A program made the translations under genes and the position numbers. A stretch of 35,334 bases of DNA, from NCBI GenBank assembly GCA_025463045.1, contig JAOAPT010000588.1:1-35334 (forward strand), written 5' to 3'. Positions 1 to 13,270 of this stretch are shown here, one piece after another. The notes beneath the pieces are model-generated. The model was not told the origin of the DNA. It made no database searches and saw nothing but the letters and a program-made list of their open reading frames with translations. The DNA is from Candidatus Solibacter sp. (GTDB taxonomy: Bacteria > Acidobacteriota > Terriglobia > Bryobacterales > Bryobacteraceae). Numbering within the stretch: position 1 is the first letter of the stretch; each line of letters opens with the position of its first letter.

Positions 1-1
1 G

Positions 2-508
2 GCGAAACCAATCGATCCGGAGATCTTCGTGCGGCAAGTCGTGGGTTTTCTGCCGCTGGAAAGGCGGGCCGCGGCGCCGAGCCCGCCGGCGGTGGCTAGC
101 CGGCCTGCACTTGGCGCGGCGCCGCAAACGCAGACCATTATGGCGGTGGACAACCAGGCGATCAATTTGGAGCTGGCACGGAGCATTCTCGAGCCCTCGG
201 GCTATAAGGTAGTCACTGCTTTCAGCATGGACGATGGTCTGGCGCTGGCGCGCGCCGACAGTTGCGACCTGATCCTCTCCGACGTCTCCATGTCCGGCGG
301 AAGCGGCTACGACTTCTTGCAGGCGGTGAAGCAGGATCCGAGGCTGCGGCCGGTGCCATTCGTCCTCATTACCTTCAGCATGATCGACGAGAAGGCGCGC
401 ATCAACGGCTTGGCACTGGGCGCGACGCGCTTCTTCTGCCGGCCGACCGAGCCGGAGCTGCTGCTGGCCGAGATTCGCGCCTGCCTGGCTGAAATAGGGG
501 ACGAGTAA
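2..508 (+). CDS. Tandem receiver (REC-REC) response-regulator protein, 5' truncated by the window edge
   Basis: The frame is open to the window edge (AKPIDPEIFVRQVVGFL..., a REC C-terminal KP motif). A second REC follows: IMAVDNQAINLELARSILEPSGYKV...DLILSDVSM...PTEPELLLAEIRACL. Confidence 0.8.
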   Translation, partial: AKPIDPEIFVRQVVGFLPLERRAAAPSPPAVASRPALGAAPQTQTIMAVDNQAINLELARSILEPSGYKVVTAFSMDDGLALARADSCDLILSDVSMSGGSGYDFLQAVKQDPRLRPVPFVLITFSMIDEKARINGLALGATRFFCRPTEPELLLAEIRACLAEIGDE

Positions 509-510
509 CA

Positions 511-3500
511 GTGGCGGTGATCCTGATTGTTGACGACGGCGCCGCCAACCGCGAATACCTTGCGGCCCTGTTGGGCTATGGCGGCCACCGGCTCTTGCAG
601 GCCGCCGATGGCGCCGAAGGCCTGGAGTTCGCGAAGGCCGAGCGGCCGGACCTGGTGATAGCCGACATCCTCATGCCGACCATGGATGGATACGAACTGG
701 TGCGCCAGATGCGCCTCGATCCGGCTCTTGCGAGCACGCCCGTGATCTTTTGCACGGCGCACTATCACGAGCGGGAAGCGCGGGCCCTGGCTCGCACCTG
801 CGGAATCTCCCACGTGATCGTCAAGCCGACTGAGCCGGAAGTCATTCTGACCGCCGTGGCGGGGGTTTTGGGCACGCCTCCGCCCGCCAGAGTTCCCAAC
901 GCGGAGGAGTTCGACCGCAAGCACCTGCGGCTGTTGACGAACAAGCTGTCGCAGAAGACCGACGATCTGAAGGCCACCAACGAGCGGCTCTCGGCGTTGA
1001 TCGAATTGAACCTCCAGCTTGGCTCGGAGCTCGATCCGCAGCGACTGCTGCAGGGATTCGGAACAGCGGCGCGGGAGATCATCGGCGCGCGGCATTCCAT
1101 CACAGGAATTCTCGACGAAACGGGCTCCCGGCTGCGGTGGCTGTTCACGAGTGGTATGGACGCCGCTGCGGCGGCGAAGCTCGGATCGCCGGATCCGCGG
1201 GCCGGGGTTTTGAAGACGATCCTTTGGGAGAGCCGGCCCACGCGGCTGCGTAATGCGGACGTCAATCCGGAATCGCTGGGGCTTTCCGCGGGGCATCCGG
1301 CGATCCATTCCTGGCTGGGCGTTCCCATCGCTTCGCCGACCCGCGTCTACGGGTACATCGGGCTCATCGACAAGGTGGGGCTGGACCAATTCAGCGAGGA
1401 GGATGAGCGGCTGGCGGTGATCCTGGCGGCGCAGGTGGGCAGGGTCTATCAAAACGGCAGCCTGTATGCCGACGTGCTGGCGCACGCGGCGAATCTGGAG
1501 CGGGAGGTGGCCGCGCGGCAACAGACAGAGAGAGCGCTGGCCGATCGGGCGCGACAGGCATCGCTGATTGCCCGGGTGGGGGCCATTCTCACCCGGAGCG
1601 ACACGGCGCAGGAAATGCTGCAACGGTGCGCCGAGGCACTGGCAGGGTACCTGGAAGGTGCTTCCGCCGGCATCTGGACGCTGGATGAGGTGGGAAACTC
1701 GCAGCTCCAGGCGAACGCCGGACCCGCTCTCGATGGCGAACCGGTTCGCCCCATTCCGCTGGCCACGATCGGCGCCATGGTGAAGGAACGCAGGCCGCAT
1801 GTCAGCAATGACGTAGCGAACGACCCCTGGATCGATGACAAGGATTGGGTGGAGAGCGCGGGCATCACGGCGTGTGCGGCGTACCCCCTGATGCTGGAAG
1901 ACCGGCTGGCGGGAGTGCTTGCGGTTTATGCGCGCGGCCCTTTCAGTCCGGAGGCTGTGGAAGCTATCGGCACAGCGGCCCAGGAAATCGCGCTGGGGAT
2001 TCAACGCAAGGACGCGGAGCGCGCGCTGCACGATCGCGAGGAGCACATCCGGCTGCTGCTGAATTCCACCGCGGAGGCGATCTACGAAATCGATCTGCAG
2101 GGGCTGTGCACGTTCGCCAATGCCGCGTGCGCGCGACTGCTGGGATACAACGACACGAGTCAATTCATCGGCCGCAACATGCACGCGCTGATACACCATA
2201 CACGGGAGGACGGCACGTCCTATCCGATGGACGAATGCCGAATCTACCAGGGCTTCCGGCGCGGGGAACCTTCACACATTCAGGACGAGGTGCTGTGGCG
2301 GGCGGAGGGATCGAGTTTTCCGGCGGAATACTGGTCGTACCCCATACGCCGCGGCGGAGAGGTGGTGGGGTCGGTGGTGACGTTTCTGGATATCACCGAG
2401 CGCAGGCAACTGGAGACGCAATTCCGCAAGGCGCAGCAGCGGCTGCGGCACATCGTGGTGTCCAGTCCGGCTGTGCTGTTTACGCTGGCGATCGTCGGAA
2501 ACGACCTCGAAAGCATCAGTTGGATCAGCGATAACGTGTGGGAGATCTTCGGATATCCGCCGGAGGCGGCCCTCGGCACGGAGTGGTGGCTGTCGTGCAT
2601 CCACCCGGACGACCGCGAGCGGGCGATGGCGCAGACCAGTGCCGAGCTGTTTTCACGCGGGCACTGCACCGAAGAGTACCGCTTCCGCTGCGCCGACGGC
2701 AGCTATCGCTGGACGCGGGCGGAGATCCGGCTGACACCGGAAGAGGCAGTCGGCGCGTGGACCGACATCAACGAGCGAAAACTCGCCGAAGAGGAGCAGG
2801 CCAAGCTTCGGGGCCAATTGCAGCAGGCGCAGAAGTTGGAAAGCGTGGGCCGGTTGGCGGGCGGAGTGGCGCACGACTTCAACAACCTGCTTACGGTGAT
2901 CAACGGCTACAGCGGTATGCTGCTCAAAAGGCTTCCAGTCATCGATCCAATTCGCGAGGACATCGAGGAGATCCAGATCGCCGGCGAACGGGCGGCGGTA
3001 TTGACCCGGCAACTGCTGCTGCTGGCGCGCCAGCAGATGGTCCAGGTCCAGCAGGTGCAGCTCAACGACGTAGTGACCGAGGTTCAGACCATGCTGCGGC
3101 GCGTGATCGGGGAGGACATCGTCCCAGAATCCGTTCTGGATCCGACACTGGGATTCGTGCTGGCGGATCCGGGCCGGTTGCACCAAGTGCTGATGAACCT
3201 CGCGGTAAACGCTCGCGATGCCATGCCGGGCGGCGGAAAGCTGTTGATCGAAACACAAAATGTGGAGCTGGATCGCAGCTTCGCCGAGTTGCACGCCGGC
3301 GTGGAGCCGGGCTCGTATGTGCAGTTGAAGGTAACCGATACCGGGGTAGGAATGACCCCAGAGGTGCTCTCTCACCTATATGAACCATTCTTCACGACGA
3401 AGGCGATCGGGGAGGGGACTGGACTGGGACTGGCAACGGTATATGGCATTATCCAGCAGAGCCAGGGATCGATTTGGGTTTACAGCGAGCCAGGCGAGGG

Positions 3501-4329
3501 AACGACGTTTACGATCTACCTTCCGCGTTCGGATAGGAGAGAGACGCTGCCCGCCAAACCGGTGGACGCACCCGCCACGCTGCGAGGTACGGAGACACTG
3601 CTGGTGGTGGAGGATCAGGACCAGCTCCGACGGATGGCAGTGAAGGTTCTGCGTGACCACGGATATCGAGTGATCGAAGGGCGCAACCCGGGCGAGGCCC
3701 TACTGCATTGCGAACGCTATCCCGGGCCGATTCACCTGCTGCTGAGCGACGTGGTGATGCCGGGAATGACGGGCCCGGAAATGGTGGAACGGATCCGGCC
3801 CCTGCGGCCGTCAATCAAGGTTTTGTTCATGTCGGGTTATAGCGAGCAGGCCCTCCAGCGCCACCGCGATCTCGAACTCGCGGGCGGCTATCTGCAGAAG
3901 CCGTTTTCCGCCGAGGCGCTGGCGACCAGAGTGCGGAAAGAGCTGGACCCGCGGCAGCCCGCGGGCACCATCCTGGTGGTGGACGATGAGCCGGCGGTCC
4001 GCCACCTGATACGGAAAATCTTGGCAGGCGTCGGCTACCAGGTGCTGGAGGCCGGCGACGGCGGCGAGGCGGTTCGGATCATCGAGGCGAACGATATCGA
4101 TCTGATGATCACCGACCTGGCGATGCCCCAGCAGGAGGGGTTAGAGACTATCCAGCGACTGCATCACAGCCGGCCGGGGCTGCGGATAGTGGCGATGTCG
4201 GGCAAGTTCCCGGAGATTCTGCGGGCTTCGGAGTATTTCGGGGCGGCGGCGGCGATTCGAAAGCCGATCGAGCCGGATGAATTGCTGAAGCTGGTACGCA
4301 ACTTGATATTGAAGCGGGAAGGCAATTGA
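511..4329 (+). CDS. Hybrid sensor histidine kinase: REC-GAF-GAF-PAS-PAS-HisKA-HATPase_c-REC-REC
   Basis: 1272 aa. REC (LIVDDGAANREYL...DILMPTMDGY), H-box GRLAGGVAHDFNNLLTVINGYS, N-box NLAVNARDAMPGGG, G-boxes DTGVGMTPEVLSHLYEPFFTTK and GTGLGLATVYGI, then two C-terminal RECs (LLVVEDQDQLRR; ILVVDDEPAVRHL). Confidence 0.95.
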   Translation: MAVILIVDDGAANREYLAALLGYGGHRLLQAADGAEGLEFAKAERPDLVIADILMPTMDGYELVRQMRLDPALASTPVIFCTAHYHEREARALARTCGISHVIVKPTEPEVILTAVAGVLGTPPPARVPNAEEFDRKHLRLLTNKLSQKTDDLKATNERLSALIELNLQLGSELDPQRLLQGFGTAAREIIGARHSITGILDETGSRLRWLFTSGMDAAAAAKLGSPDPRAGVLKTILWESRPTRLRNADVNPESLGLSAGHPAIHSWLGVPIASPTRVYGYIGLIDKVGLDQFSEEDERLAVILAAQVGRVYQNGSLYADVLAHAANLEREVAARQQTERALADRARQASLIARVGAILTRSDTAQEMLQRCAEALAGYLEGASAGIWTLDEVGNSQLQANAGPALDGEPVRPIPLATIGAMVKERRPHVSNDVANDPWIDDKDWVESAGITACAAYPLMLEDRLAGVLAVYARGPFSPEAVEAIGTAAQEIALGIQRKDAERALHDREEHIRLLLNSTAEAIYEIDLQGLCTFANAACARLLGYNDTSQFIGRNMHALIHHTREDGTSYPMDECRIYQGFRRGEPSHIQDEVLWRAEGSSFPAEYWSYPIRRGGEVVGSVVTFLDITERRQLETQFRKAQQRLRHIVVSSPAVLFTLAIVGNDLESISWISDNVWEIFGYPPEAALGTEWWLSCIHPDDRERAMAQTSAELFSRGHCTEEYRFRCADGSYRWTRAEIRLTPEEAVGAWTDINERKLAEEEQAKLRGQLQQAQKLESVGRLAGGVAHDFNNLLTVINGYSGMLLKRLPVIDPIREDIEEIQIAGERAAVLTRQLLLLARQQMVQVQQVQLNDVVTEVQTMLRRVIGEDIVPESVLDPTLGFVLADPGRLHQVLMNLAVNARDAMPGGGKLLIETQNVELDRSFAELHAGVEPGSYVQLKVTDTGVGMTPEVLSHLYEPFFTTKAIGEGTGLGLATVYGIIQQSQGSIWVYSEPGEGTTFTIYLPRSDRRETLPAKPVDAPATLRGTETLLVVEDQDQLRRMAVKVLRDHGYRVIEGRNPGEALLHCERYPGPIHLLLSDVVMPGMTGPEMVERIRPLRPSIKVLFMSGYSEQALQRHRDLELAGGYLQKPFSAEALATRVRKELDPRQPAGTILVVDDEPAVRHLIRKILAGVGYQVLEAGDGGEAVRIIEANDIDLMITDLAMPQQEGLETIQRLHHSRPGLRIVAMSGKFPEILRASEYFGAAAAIRKPIEPDELLKLVRNLILKREGN

Positions 4330-5308: not shown

Positions 5309-5518
5309 CTAATAATCTTCGCGAACTGAATCTTCCAGATCGAAGTTGCCGGCGACCATTGCAGCCCGCAGGGTATCGATGTCTTTGCCGGAGTTCTCCG
5401 CCCGCTCCAGGCACCCGTGGCAGCACAGCAAATGTTCCTCAAGAGGCGCCAGTTCAGCCTCGTCTACAACCATTCCGAGGTAGTAGCGGTCTAAGTCGTG
5501 GTCAGAAATATGTTCCAT
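5309..5518 (-). CDS. Small HC-type zinc-finger (anti-sigma/zf-HC2-like) protein, 69 aa
   Basis: MEHISDHDLDRYYLGMVVDEAELAPLEEHLLCCHGCLERAENSGKDIDTLRAAM. The H-x3-C-x2-C pattern is typical of this family. Start set at the internal ATG. Confidence 0.6.
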   Translation of the reverse strand: MEHISDHDLDRYYLGMVVDEAELAPLEEHLLCCHGCLERAENSGKDIDTLRAAMVAGNFDLEDSVREDY

Positions 5519-5641
5519 GTCAGTGTAGCGGCAGGGCGCCAAGCACATTACCCCGAACCGCATTCGCCAGGCAGCTTCGCGCTGACGGCAATGGGATAGC
5601 GGGCGAAAACCGTGTGTCATCCAGCCCACTGGACTCAAATG

Positions 5642-5830
5642 TTACCTGCACAACTGCAAAAGTGGGGGAGCCGCAACGCGGGGGAACAGGTCCTCCAACT
5701 GAAGCTGGCATGTCGGGCAAAGCAGCAGATGCCCCTCCAGCAGTTCCAACTCCTGCCTTTCGAGTAATTCTGCTCGATACTGGTTCAGTGTGGTGTCGGA
5801 TATGTGCCGCCTCAGCAGAAACTCAAACAC
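5642..5830 (-). CDS. Small HC-type zinc-finger-like protein, 62 aa, apparent paralogue of the neighbouring 69-aa protein
   Basis: MFEFLLRRHISDTTLNQYRAELLERQELELLEGHLLLCPTCQLQLEDL. GTG start preceded by AAGGAGAACATC on the - strand. Confidence 0.55.
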   Translation of the reverse strand: MFEFLLRRHISDTTLNQYRAELLERQELELLEGHLLLCPTCQLQLEDLFPRVAAPPLLQLCR

Positions 5831-6063
5831 GATGTTCTCCTTCGAGCCACCGGACCGCTCGTGCCTCTAAGATCAGGTTGAGTCAATGGGCTCCCGACAG
5901 CAATAGGATGTTAAAGGTATTTCGGGCGCGGCAGAATTGTGCAACCCTTTCGATGGCTGGTACCCGCTAGAGTATCGCCCTATGCCTGTCGAGGGTTTCA
6001 CGGTATTCACTTTGCGGAGTTTCGGTGCCAGAGTGTGGTTAAGGGTCTGGAGTTCCCCACATT

Positions 6064-7255
6064 TTGTCGGAATCCGTGTTTCGCGTGTTACTCATCGAAG
6101 ACAACGCTGGCGATGCCGAACTTGTCAAGGCAGCGCTTGCGGAGGGCGGCGGCGCCGTCGCATTTGAGGTCCACTGGGCCGAAGCACTGCTGCCCGGTCT
6201 GGACCGTCTGGCGCGCGCAGATTTCGATCTAGTGCTCCTCGATGTCTCTCTCCCGGACAGCCACGGCCTGGAGGGTCTAAACGCGGTCCGCACCCATGCT
6301 CCCTCAACTCCAGTAGTGCTGCTGACCGGGTGGGATAGCGAGTCCTTAGCGTTGCGGGCGGTGCAAAGCGGAGCGCAGGAATACCTCGTGAAGGGTACAT
6401 TAGAGGGGCCTGTTCTGGCTCGCGCCCTCCAACATGCCATTGTACGCCAGAGAATCAAAGCCGACACCTCATCCCCCGAAGGTAAAATCAAGCATGCAAA
6501 AATTGTCGGGTTTCTTGGCGCTAAAGGCGGAGTTGGCAGTACTACCATCGCCTGTCACATCGCGATGGAATTGAAGCGGCAGGCCGATGGCCCGGTCCTG
6601 CTGATGATCTCGTTATGGCGGGCATGCCATCGGTTTCGTGATGAACGTGAACTCGCCCTACGGAATTATGGCCGCTTCCGACGACATCCTGCACCTGGAT
6701 GAGGATCGCTGGCGGAAGTTGGTCGTTACCACTAGTGGATTGGATGTCATTCAGTCCGGGGGCCCCGTATCACGCGAAGAGCAGCAGCCGAGAGCGGAGA
6801 GGTCCGGTTGCTGCTCAATTTCGTCCGCTCGCTCTATAGTTGGGTTGTCGTGGATCTCGGCCGAATGACGCCTTCGTCGCCCAGGCGCTTCAGAGCGCGC
6901 AATCGGCTACGTCCTCAAAGCGTGCACCGAGGAAAATCTCGTCCGCGCCGTGAGAGAGGCGGCCGCCGGCCGACGTTTCCTCAATCTACCAGTAACGGAG
7001 ATCGCTATTGATGCCTACATTGAACAATCCAAGACTGAAGTATTCGACCCCACGATACGCTAACACCGCGACAGCGCGAGGTCCTTCAAATGGCAGCTGA
7101 AGGGAAGACGACCGCCGAGATTGCGGCGCGCCTGACAATCAGTCCACGGACCGTGAGAATCACTGTGCCACTATCATGAGGAAACTGGGCTGCAAAACCA
7201 GACGGAACTGATTCGCCACGCGATGCGCCACGGGCTGACTCCGCTCGAAGAATAG
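6064..7255 (+). pseudogene. Frameshifted REC-CpaE/ParA-like ATPase fused to the remnant of a NarL/LuxR-type response regulator
   Basis: Intact REC (FRVLLIEDNAGDAELVKAAL...LLDVSLPDSHG...YLVKGTLEG), then Walker A-like KIVGFLGAKGGVGSTTIACHIAMEL. Changing frames give MAGMPS, VMNVNSPYGIMAASDDILHLDEDRWRKLV, RLLLNFVRSLYSWVVVDLGR, IGYVLKACTEENLVRAVREAAAGRRFL, LTPRQREVLQMAAEGKTTAEIAARLTISPRTV and QTELIRHAMRHGLTPLEE*. Confidence 0.85.
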
Positions 7256-7556
7256 CCCGTGACCCGCTGTCTGGCGTATTTCCATCTATTTGATGGTCGT
7301 GAGAATAATGTCAGATCTTCGAGTATTAGTACGGATAGTAATCCTGGTGGACGCCCCGCCATTCTTTAGTAAGGGCCCTAAGCCCTTGGTATCCGTACCC
7401 TCAGGCCCACTGTTCAGCAAATCCGAGTCATGTTATTTGATACGGCTTTCGTGGGATGCCGTCCAGAAGACGCGTTGGCATTCGTAGTCGAAATTCTGCA
7501 GTCGCCGACCGAGTACTCCCTCATTCTAGAGTTCGCGATTGTGAGGTCCCCATCCA

Positions 7557-9044
7557 ATGACCGCCCAGTGCGTTAGCGTCCTGATCATCGAAGATAACCC
7601 GGACGACGCGTGGTTAGCCCGGGAAGTCCTGCAGGGAACTTCGGAGCCGGCATACCGGGTTGAGTGGGCCGACACGCTCACGACCGGTCTGACTCGTCTG
7701 GCCGAGGGTGGCATCGATGTGCTCCTGCTGGACCTCGGTCTTCCCGACAGCCGCGGGCCGCAAGCGCTGACGCTGATTAGTCATTTAGCGCCGGCCGTTC
7801 CCGTAGTGGTACTGACTGGCGCCGACGATGAGCAACTTGCGATGGACGCGATGCGTGAAGGCGCGCAAGATTACCTAGTAAAATCCCATGCCGACTCTCA
7901 CCTCCTGACGCACACCATTCGCTATGCCATTGAGCGCAAGCGCGCCGCTGAGGCGCTCCGCATCAGCGAAGAGCGCCTGCGCCTGGCGGTGCTGGCTGCC
8001 AATGAAGCCATTTGGGAATACGACCCCGTCAAGGGCATACCATGGAATAAGGCGTACGAGGGACTCTCCGGCATCACGCCGGAGGCCGCGTCGGTCGCCG
8101 AATTCTGCGTCAGGCCTATCCACCCGGACGACCGCGATCGGGTGTTCCGGAGCTTCGCCGAGACGCTGGAAGGACGAGCCCTTTCTTGGAGGGCGGAATA
8201 CAGGCTGAAGCGCGCCGATGGCGAATGGTCCCACATCCATGACCGCGCGATCATCGCTCGCGATCGCTCGGGGCAGGCGACTCGGGTCGTAGGGGCAATG
8301 CTCGATGTCTCCGACCTCAAGCGCAGCGAGGAAGCTTTGCGGGCGTCCAATCGCAAGCTTCAGCAGCTTTCCAGAGATCTGCTGCGCGCCCAGGATTACG
8401 AGAGGCGCAGAATTGCGCGGGAACTGCACGACAGCACGGCACAGCTGTTGGCTGCCTTGAGTATCAACCTCACCCGTCTGCAGGATGGCGGGTTAGAACC
8501 CGAACGGCGAAGCCGCGTACTCTCAGAGGCGGTCGAATTGGCGGCTGCGTGTTCCGCGGAAATTCGAACCGTCACGTGCCTTCTGCATCCACCCCTGCTC
8601 CAGGAACTCGGGCTGGTAAGCGCGCTGCAAAGCTACGCCCAGGGCTTCAACCAGCGGACCGGGATTCACGTCGAGCTCAAAATTCCGGCCGACTTCTGCC
8701 GGCTCAGCCTCGAGGTGGAAGCCACTCTCTTCCGCATTGTCCAGGAAGGGTTGGCGAACGTTCACAAACACTCCGGCAGCCAGTTGGCAGTTGTGCGGCT
8801 GGAGCAGGATTCACAGGAAGTCCGATTAGTGCTGCAAGACCGGGGCCGGGGCTTGCCAGAGGTGCTGCAGGATCAGGCAGAGGGATATGTCCGCTTTGGC
8901 GTTGGTGTCATCGGCATGCGCGAGCGCGCGGAGCAACTTGGCGGCCGGTTGGAGCTTACTTCGAACAAGATCGGCGCAAGGCTGATCGTAGTTTTGCCCC
9001 TAGTGCATTCTAATGATGAAAACGCGAATATTGTTGGTGGATGA
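7557..9044 (+). CDS. REC-PAS-HisKA_3-HATPase sensor histidine kinase (NarX/DegS-like transmitter)
   Basis: 495 aa. LIIEDNPDDAWLAREVL (REC), PAS with SWRAEYRLKRADGEWSHIHDRAI, HisKA_3 box YERRRIARELHDSTAQLLAALSINL, N-box FRIVQEGLANVHKHSGS. Confidence 0.92.
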   Translation: MTAQCVSVLIIEDNPDDAWLAREVLQGTSEPAYRVEWADTLTTGLTRLAEGGIDVLLLDLGLPDSRGPQALTLISHLAPAVPVVVLTGADDEQLAMDAMREGAQDYLVKSHADSHLLTHTIRYAIERKRAAEALRISEERLRLAVLAANEAIWEYDPVKGIPWNKAYEGLSGITPEAASVAEFCVRPIHPDDRDRVFRSFAETLEGRALSWRAEYRLKRADGEWSHIHDRAIIARDRSGQATRVVGAMLDVSDLKRSEEALRASNRKLQQLSRDLLRAQDYERRRIARELHDSTAQLLAALSINLTRLQDGGLEPERRSRVLSEAVELAAACSAEIRTVTCLLHPPLLQELGLVSALQSYAQGFNQRTGIHVELKIPADFCRLSLEVEATLFRIVQEGLANVHKHSGSQLAVVRLEQDSQEVRLVLQDRGRGLPEVLQDQAEGYVRFGVGVIGMRERAEQLGGRLELTSNKIGARLIVVLPLVHSNDENANIVGG

Positions 9045-9672
9045 TCATCAGGTGGTCAGACGGGGAGTCGCCGGACTCATCGCCGATGCCCGCAGCGACT
9101 GGGATGTCTGCGGCGAAGCATCCACAGGCAGCGAAGCCGTGGCATCTGCCGCTGCGCTCAAGCCGGACATCGTCGTCATGGACATTTCCATGCCCGATAT
9201 GAATGGCCTGGAGGCCACGCGCGAGATTCTGAAAGCCAGCCCTGGCACTGAAGTCCTGATTCTGTCTATGCATGAATCGGACCAGATGGTCTACGATGTG
9301 TTGGGCGCGGGCGCCCGCGGCTACATACTCAAGAGGGATGCGGGCAACAACCTGATCGCGGCCCTGGAAGCACTTCGGCAACATAAGCTCTTCTTCACTT
9401 CCGAGGTATCTGAGGTGGTGTTGGGCGGATTTCTTGGCCGCACCGGCGCCACAGCAACCGAGGAGGTGTCCTCCAGCCGGCTCAGCGTGCGGGAGCGGCA
9501 AATTGTCAAACTGGTGGCCGAGAGCAAGTCCAACAAAGAGGTCGCCTTCATTCTTCAGATCAGTATCAAGACCGTGGAATCCCACAGGGCTAACGTTATG
9601 GAGAAACTCGGCCTTCATTCGGTCACCGAACTGGTCCGGTATGCGATCCGCAATAACATTGTGGAGTGCTGA
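9013..9672 (+). CDS. NarL/FixJ-family response regulator (REC-LuxR HTH)
   Basis: ILLVDDHQVVRRGVAGLIAD...DIVVMDISMPDMNGLE...GYILKRDAG...LSVRERQIVKLVAESKSNKEVAFILQISIKTVESHRANVMEKLGLHSVTELVRYAI. Overlaps the 3' end of the upstream kinase gene by 32 nt. Confidence 0.95.
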   Translation: MMKTRILLVDDHQVVRRGVAGLIADARSDWDVCGEASTGSEAVASAAALKPDIVVMDISMPDMNGLEATREILKASPGTEVLILSMHESDQMVYDVLGAGARGYILKRDAGNNLIAALEALRQHKLFFTSEVSEVVLGGFLGRTGATATEEVSSSRLSVRERQIVKLVAESKSNKEVAFILQISIKTVESHRANVMEKLGLHSVTELVRYAIRNNIVEC

Positions 9673-9774
9673 CAGAGCAAATTAGGGCGCCGGCAGGGGT
9701 TGGCCACGGCAGGAAAGAGAACCCAACGAAATTAGGGGCTTACCTTACGTTTAATCTGGGTTTTTAGAATTATC

Positions 9775-12073: not shown

Positions 12074-13270
12074 CTATGGCAGGAGTGTCAACTGTACAGA
12101 GTGAATCCAGAGTTCGCCTTCCATCCTGGTTGTACCCGGCAGCCTGGTATAGGAGAGCAGTAACCTCACGGGGCACTGTTGGCGCGGGGTCTCGAAGGGG
12201 AACATTTGTTCAACGAATTCCTCAGCAGCCAGATTCATCAGGCCCACCATCACAGGCTTACCGGAGGGCATAGGTAGAACGGACCACTGCAGGCCGCTTC
12301 CGGATTGGGAGTGGCGGAGACGGTAGCGGACTTTGAGCTGATATTGCCTCCTGGGCAAGAGCGGAACGAACAGGCCCATCAGTTCGCAGGTTTCGGGCTG
12401 GCTACCGGAAAACTCCAGGTAAAGGCTACGGTCCGGTAGCGATCGGATCGCGGAAACACCGGAAGGGGTCGAATTCTTCCAGTCAAACCCACGTTCCAAC
12501 GGCTCTCCCGCAAAGGCTCCATTCGCGAGAGATTTTCCAGACACCGGATCCAAGGGAAAGAGATTGATCCAGCCGACCCGGATGGCTGTGTTCCACAGGT
12601 CAACGGCCTCGTCGATTTCGCCCGCGGCAAATAGAGACTCGCAAGTTTCTAAAATGCTACTTCGATTTTCTTTCGAGCCGATTCGGACGAGTTGCGCGGC
12701 GGCGGCATGTTGCTGTCCGACTCTGCCTTGCTGGAGCAAGAGACGCAGATAGGCGTCAACCCGGTCGGGAACTTCGGGCAGCAGATCATCGAGTATCTGG
12801 CTGGATGTCAGGTTCAGTCTCTGCGCCATCTTGAACAAGGATTCCGGCTCGCCACTGCCGGCAGATAACGCCGATTTCGCCCATTTGACGAATTCCGTCT
12901 TGTTGCCCTGACGATAGTAAAATGCGGCCAGACTCCAACGAGGCGTGAAGTAACGGCTGACCAGATTGGCTTGAAGGAGGCTCTTTTCGGCTCCGGCGAC
13001 GTCGCCGTCCTGTTCCTGGCGGACTGAGAGCAGAATCCACCAGGACGGATTCCTCGAATTCAGCGCGAGGGCGGTGCGCAGTTGGTCGTCTTGCGAAGAG
13101 TCCAGCGTAGCAATGCGCGCATAGTAATCCGCGTTACGAGGCGTGATCTCAAGTGCGGCATGCAGTGCCTCGACGGTGTCCCTGCGGGAAAGTTGCTCCG
13201 CACGGGTGAAGCGCAATGTCTCCGCGATGGCATAGCCGGCCAGAAAGATCGCAGGGATACTCACAGCCAA
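12074..13270 (-). CDS. Secreted or membrane-anchored TPR-like protein of the polysaccharide locus
   Basis: N-terminal hydrophobic segment (AVSIPAIFLAGYAIAETLRF), then ALHAALEITPRNADYYARIATLDSSQDDQLRTALALNSRNPSWWILLSVRQEQDGDVAGAEKSLLQA repeats. TTG start is the earliest plausible codon. Confidence 0.65.
   Translation of the reverse strand: MAVSIPAIFLAGYAIAETLRFTRAEQLSRRDTVEALHAALEITPRNADYYARIATLDSSQDDQLRTALALNSRNPSWWILLSVRQEQDGDVAGAEKSLLQANLVSRYFTPRWSLAAFYYRQGNKTEFVKWAKSALSAGSGEPESLFKMAQRLNLTSSQILDDLLPEVPDRVDAYLRLLLQQGRVGQQHAAAAQLVRIGSKENRSSILETCESLFAAGEIDEAVDLWNTAIRVGWINLFPLDPVSGKSLANGAFAGEPLERGFDWKNSTPSGVSAIRSLPDRSLYLEFSGSQPETCELMGLFVPLLPRRQYQLKVRYRLRHSQSGSGLQWSVLPMPSGKPVMVGLMNLAAEEFVEQMFPFETPRQQCPVRLLLSYTRLPGTTRMEGELWIHSVQLTLLP

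Follow-up and report, generated by a model that had tools for sequence, protein, structure and literature searches.

A chimeric REC-CpaE/NarL gene relic, probably genuine and very recent, with seven single-base losses in a Bryobacterales-like genome

Introduction

Large two-component families turn over, leaving gene fragments behind. Two known gene families are represented in the locus described here. REC-CpaE/ParA-family ATPases join a receiver to a CpaE/TadZ-like P-loop ATPase; the copy described here lacks the C-terminal half of the ATPase and is out of frame past the P-loop. The second family is that of the NarL/FixJ (LuxR-type HTH) regulators. The remnant corresponds to the second REC half and GerE domain of an intact NarL from the same genome (contig C913), but unlike the regulators of this family it is without the N-terminal 87 codons and has four frameshifts.

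Bacterial pseudogenes with a small-deletion bias (Mira et al. 2001, cited in PMC8717266) are truncated, frameshifted and non-coding remnants of once-selected genes that have undergone net DNA loss. The relic is likewise such a remnant. It differs from those pseudogenes in having seven losses that are all -1, no nonsense codon, little or no excess of substitutions, and a grouping of the losses around one joint.

Two mutation spectra are of relevance to these features. Of 118 spontaneous mutations recorded in Acidobacterium capsulatum, 31 are indels, more than 26% as compared with 1.8-11.9% elsewhere; this is 31 indels to 87 substitutions, with insertions and deletions equal at 15:16 (PMC8717266). 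DinB-dependent break-repair mutagenesis in E. coli is characterised by -1 losses in small repeats (PMC2543114). Compared with this stress-induced mutagenic break repair of the Lac system, the relic has more losses in a shorter tract, and a similar origin for it would be read from sequence only.

Results

Layout of the locus

The window, i.e., the whole stretch of 35,334 nt analysed, is contig C105 of a 7.7-Mb genome bin of 1038 contigs. The contigs measure about 3-35 kb, which suggests a short-read assembly. The nearest named relative among the genomes compared is Bryobacterales bacterium palsa_129 (PMTR01000169, here G044). Both flanks of the damaged region match a single G044 locus, with order and orientation preserved; identity is 79% for 5687-6863 and 81% for 7531-9673. 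Reference homologues were the 406-aa REC-CpaE of G044 and the 218-aa NarL of contig C913. The features are collected in Table 1.

Table 1. Features of the relic and its flanks, in window coordinates
Feature	Position	Strand	Basis or content
1272-aa hybrid histidine kinase, intact left flank	511..4329	+	one ORF; GAF, PAS, HisKA, HATPase, REC ordered
REC-CpaE 5′ part, intact and still open	6064..6604	+	TTG start; receiver and ParA/CpaE P-loop KGGVGSTT
CpaE ATPase middle, frameshifted, three single-base losses	6605..6863	+	DNA alignment with G044, G100 and G006 (to ~6700)
Left deletion joint, CpaE codon ~267 / NarL codon ~87, out of frame	6863..6864		ends of homology and frames
NarL/LuxR-type response regulator 3′ part, four single-base losses	6864..7256	+	second REC half and GerE HTH
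PAS histidine kinase, N-terminal 30 residues, cut by right joint	7436..7525	+	tblastn and DNA alignment
Right deletion joint	7526..7531		homology to 505-aa kinase (HK505) to 7525, G044 homology from 7531
REC-PAS-HisKA_3 histidine kinase, intact right flank	7557..9044	+	74% aa identity to G044, indels 0, Pfam
NarL-type regulator, intact right flank	9013..9672	+	86% aa identity to G044, indels 0

The REC-CpaE remnant

The ORF that starts at 6064 shows 80% aa identity to the G044 REC-CpaE over its first 181 residues, and the Pfam Response_reg domain is detected in it. The 5′ part displays no frameshift relative to G044 and a single 3-nt in-frame insertion. Intact homologues are present in G044, G100 and G006, and that of G044 has the Response_reg and ParA/AAA_31 domains. 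It should be noted that the G044 protein matches the CpaE homologue model TIGR03815 weakly, at 56.7 bits against a cutoff of 154. The frame of the window copy is disrupted relative to these intact homologues. A whole receiver and a whole ParA-type ATPase in one frame were not found in the window copy, with the frame lost at 6605 and the C-terminal half absent. The missing half was also sought elsewhere in the same genome, where the best match, at 34%, is distant. As predicted from the reading frames, a stub of 212 aa containing the receiver and P-loop (6064-6702) could still be translated. The relic can yield no NarL and no ATPase.

Two deletion joints and a stranded NarL-kinase block

Homology to the G044 ATPase stops at 6863 and homology to NarL begins at 6869-6870. 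The passage from one to the other shifts from frame 0 to frame 2, and this out-of-frame joint rules out an in-frame CpaE-NarL fusion protein. The NarL part has 72-73% DNA identity to the intact C913 NarL and 68% to an intact homologue in G022. A full receiver and GerE domain in one frame were not found here either: the first ~87 codons are absent and four shifts are present.

A third gene fragment lies 180 nt past the NarL end. Its 30 residues are 70% identical to the start of the 505-aa C913 kinase (tblastn, E 3e-8), and the match is also seen by DNA alignment. On C913 the NarL and kinase genes have the same order, with 160 nt between them as compared with 180 nt in the window. Because a NarL tail is followed by a kinase start, in the order found on C913, the segment 6864-7526 is read as what is left of a NarL-histidine-kinase module that had been duplicated and then lost both its ends; the intact paralogue is on C913. 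It stands in place of about 6.3 kb of G044-type genes; between the same flanks G044 has the C-terminal half of the ATPase, a PAS protein, two kinases and two receivers. No repeats were found at the joint, and a scan for promoters and terminators gave nothing better than chance.

The original prediction of a chimeric REC-CpaE/NarL pseudogene was correct, with the CpaE-to-NarL joint placed at 6863/6864. Its proposal of one internal deletion near 6862 was right in kind but incomplete, as there are two joints, at 6863 and ~7526, and the relic runs on to the second of these, past the end first assigned to it, and includes the third fragment. As to the proposed check for intact REC-CpaE and NarL genes side by side in relatives, no relative with REC-CpaE beside this NarL was found.

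The first 704 nt of the window (1-704) match the last 704 nt of C913 (3903-4606) at 95.7%, without indels. C913 is thus probably the upstream neighbour contig, broken by strain variation, and an intact HK-NarL-HK module would therefore lie ~9 kb upstream of the relic. The C913 NarL as another strain's allele of the relic was rejected: the 1272-aa kinase separates the two, and their divergence is 27%, compared with 4% in the contig-end overlap.

Seven single-base losses

DNA alignment with the intact relatives reveals exactly seven single-base losses, each -1, between 6605 and 7190. Three are in the CpaE part, near 6605, 6624 and 6797-6804 (6061-6863 aligned to G044), and four in the NarL part, near 6896-6897, 7047-7048, 7154-7155 and 7190 (6866-7260 aligned to the C913 NarL). 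The losses were also viewed in a four-way alignment. When all codons are read in the homologue's frame across the losses, no stop codon is found.

The count and the common sign agree with what had been predicted, and four of the seven positions hold. The other three are displaced by 7-12 nt: the loss assigned to 6636 (TTTT>TTT) is at ~6624, in an AAC codon of the homologue, that assigned to 7060 (CC>C) is at ~7048, and that assigned to 7197 (AAAAA>AAAA) is at ~7190. The residues read at these three sites change with the corrected positions.

The homologues fix the missing base at only four sites, GG, AA, GGG and GG. These four resolvable losses all come from runs of 2-3 bases (p about 0.03, a modest and post hoc value). 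Any single-base loss can be written as the shortening of a run, with the missing letter taken to repeat the one beside it, and such shortening is thus no evidence by itself. The longest run in the damaged tract, GGGGGCCCC (GGGGG-CCCC, 6758-6766), is intact. The suggestion that the losses are mostly in homopolymers is therefore weak, since the two longest runs named are mislocated, GGGGGCCCC is intact and only four sites are resolved.

All seven losses are located within ~590 nt, for which the probability by chance is ~4e-10 against the 30.7 kb of coding sequence in the window. They extend from -261 to +327 nt around the left joint, on both of its sides, and the ORF is free of losses for its first 540 nt; the clustering around the joint has a p of about 0.015 if losses are uniform over the ORF pair, which is again modest and post hoc. 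That 7/7 are deletions has p = 0.008 under a 1:1 ratio of insertions to deletions, a test chosen after seeing the data.

The damage is local

Across 2,148 nt compared with G044, the two right-flank genes (7557-9044 and 9013-9672) show no indels. The 1272-aa kinase on the left reads open throughout, with its domains in order. Thus the damage is local, as had been predicted. For a genome background, a coding-frame HMM was run over a 503-kb sample with 452 kb coding; with its strict score filter it misses short shifted segments in the present locus, so that the genome count serves as a rough background only. Few candidates were returned and most are gene boundaries on inspection. Similar frameshifts are not spread throughout the assembly: only two other multi-frameshift genes were recognised in the 503 kb, and one of these has a stop codon of the kind typical of natural decay. 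Losses in long homopolymers, which would also mark an artefact, are not seen, GGGGGCCCC being intact and the resolvable losses being in runs of 2-3.

The first of the two genes (C4, about 3400-3990, minus strand) is a C-terminal remnant like a TonB-dependent receptor, with an in-frame stop and a frameshift, i.e., a conventional decayed relic. The second (C200, about 2790-3330, minus strand) is a Ser/Thr kinase gene in which ~530 nt separate two frameshifts. One of its shifts is at an apparent activation-loop gap, a further case in this genome of a deletion with a nearby -1.

Few substitutions accompany the losses

Differences in the shifted NarL part are distributed.13/.13/.57 by codon position, and the third position dominates as in intact genes. 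In a three-way comparison, the NarL changes by codon position are 5/9/26 on the window branch and 10/5/23 on the branch of the intact C913 gene; for the shifted CpaE part the window branch has 11/5/12. Old pseudogenes, though not necessarily young ones, are expected to have lost the third-position bias; the relic has retained it. The disruption, if real, is then too recent to show relaxed constraint.

The neutral substitutions that have accumulated since the disruption are put by a mixture estimate at a median of 8, with a 95% upper bound of 28 (about 0-28 with seven deletions). Intergenic DNA adjacent upstream has 7 indels per 145 substitutions, pooled from two pairwise comparisons, and 2 per 61 against G044 alone. 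The number of substitutions expected with seven indels is ~20 at the A. capsulatum ratio, ~51 at that of T. turnerae (PMC5833318) and ~145 at that of the adjacent intergenic DNA. At these ratios, the seven losses would fit slow decay only if the mutation ratio is unusually indel-rich.

Discussion

Origin of the relic

The locus is probably a genuine gene relic of very recent origin, in a Bryobacterales-like (Acidobacteriota) genome. A pair of large deletions would have taken the back half of REC-CpaE, the intervening genes and the greater part of a NarL-kinase module that had been duplicated, so leaving a NarL tail and a kinase head stranded between the joints at 6863 and ~7526. The single-base losses may have come after the deletions or together with them, too fast for substitutions to build up. 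The joints, the missing bases, their locality, the lack of stop codons and the intact relatives are observed, whereas we infer that the seven losses are real mutations, and their time order. The inner block keeps the NarL-then-kinase order of C913, and natural relics are found in the same genome (the C4 TonB remnant and the C200 kinase), both of which argue for a genuine relic. Counting against it are seven deletions with a median of 8 substitutions, when ~145 are expected at the intergenic ratio, and the fact that all seven are losses. The relic thus appears genuine and ordinary in kind, of known gene families, with one unexplained feature, its many deletions versus few substitutions.

The losses could quite possibly stem from ordinary decay that was gradual, under a mutation spectrum as rich in indels as the one known from A. 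capsulatum, though we stop short of calling this probable. The ~20 substitutions predicted from that acidobacterium lie inside the bound of 28 (PMC8717266). However, with insertions and deletions equal in that species, 7/7 deletions have a p of about 0.01, and the intergenic DNA beside the relic is far less rich in indels against G044.

A local assembly or sequencing error should also be considered, in which a patch of ~600 nt around 6863 was covered by few or error-prone reads, so that the losses are not in the cell and the joints may be real or false. Seven losses without detectable extra substitutions are most simply explained in this way, and their common sign and their position close to the joint, leaving the ORF's first 540 nt untouched, are what it would give. 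Short-read assembly rarely makes indels, and the short contigs point to short reads; moreover, long homopolymers are intact, almost no other such patch is present in 503 kb, and the flanks are syntenic with G044. We regard such an error as unlikely.

More doubtful still is a burst in a single event, whereby a break at the deletion joint was repaired by an error-prone DinB-type polymerase that made -1 losses on both sides at once. The losses do straddle the joint, the resolvable ones come from runs of two or three bases, substitutions are in deficit, and the genome encodes a DinB-family polymerase (PF00817 on C531) and three Ku proteins (PF02735 on C774, C551 and C178). However, the E. coli clusters are estimated at about 1.7 mutations, not seven (PMC2543114), DinB enzymes also make substitutions (PMC10159617), and the statistics on clustering are post hoc and of modest strength. 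The full proposal, in which a single event of mutagenic break repair would have produced the deletion joint along with all seven losses, as a -1 frameshift shower over ~600 nt that occurred naturally in a wild acidobacterium, is slightly less probable again. It should be noted that gradual decay and the burst are both versions of a genuine relic, and the confidence placed in them overlaps with that placed in the relic itself.

A genome-wide homopolymer error is rejected on the near-clean 503-kb sample and the intact long runs. A random contig chimera is disfavoured, as a single G044 locus accounts for both flanks with their order and orientation preserved; in addition, a mis-join should have left the lost ATPase half on some other contig, and no match above 34% is found elsewhere in the genome.

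If the relic is genuine, the imbalance of deletions and substitutions would point to a -1 burst at a break or to an indel-dominated spectrum in soil Acidobacteriota similar to that of A. capsulatum, and either could be tested by a survey of young relics in the clade. Should it instead be an assembly error, the case is a warning that read support is needed for chimeric "fusion genes" from fragmented genome bins.

Neighbouring genes and contigs

Short zinc-finger-like ORFs (CPTC/CCHGC) are found divergent from REC-CpaE, at 5309-5850 on the minus strand of the window, at 933-1175 of locus L007 and at 12778-13071 of locus L061. The one closest to REC-CpaE is conserved in G006 and G044. The REC-CpaE gene of G006 is split over two contig ends, with residues 1-231 on C549 (1-699) and residues 225-404 on C164 (8923-9459), and these two contigs therefore probably adjoin.
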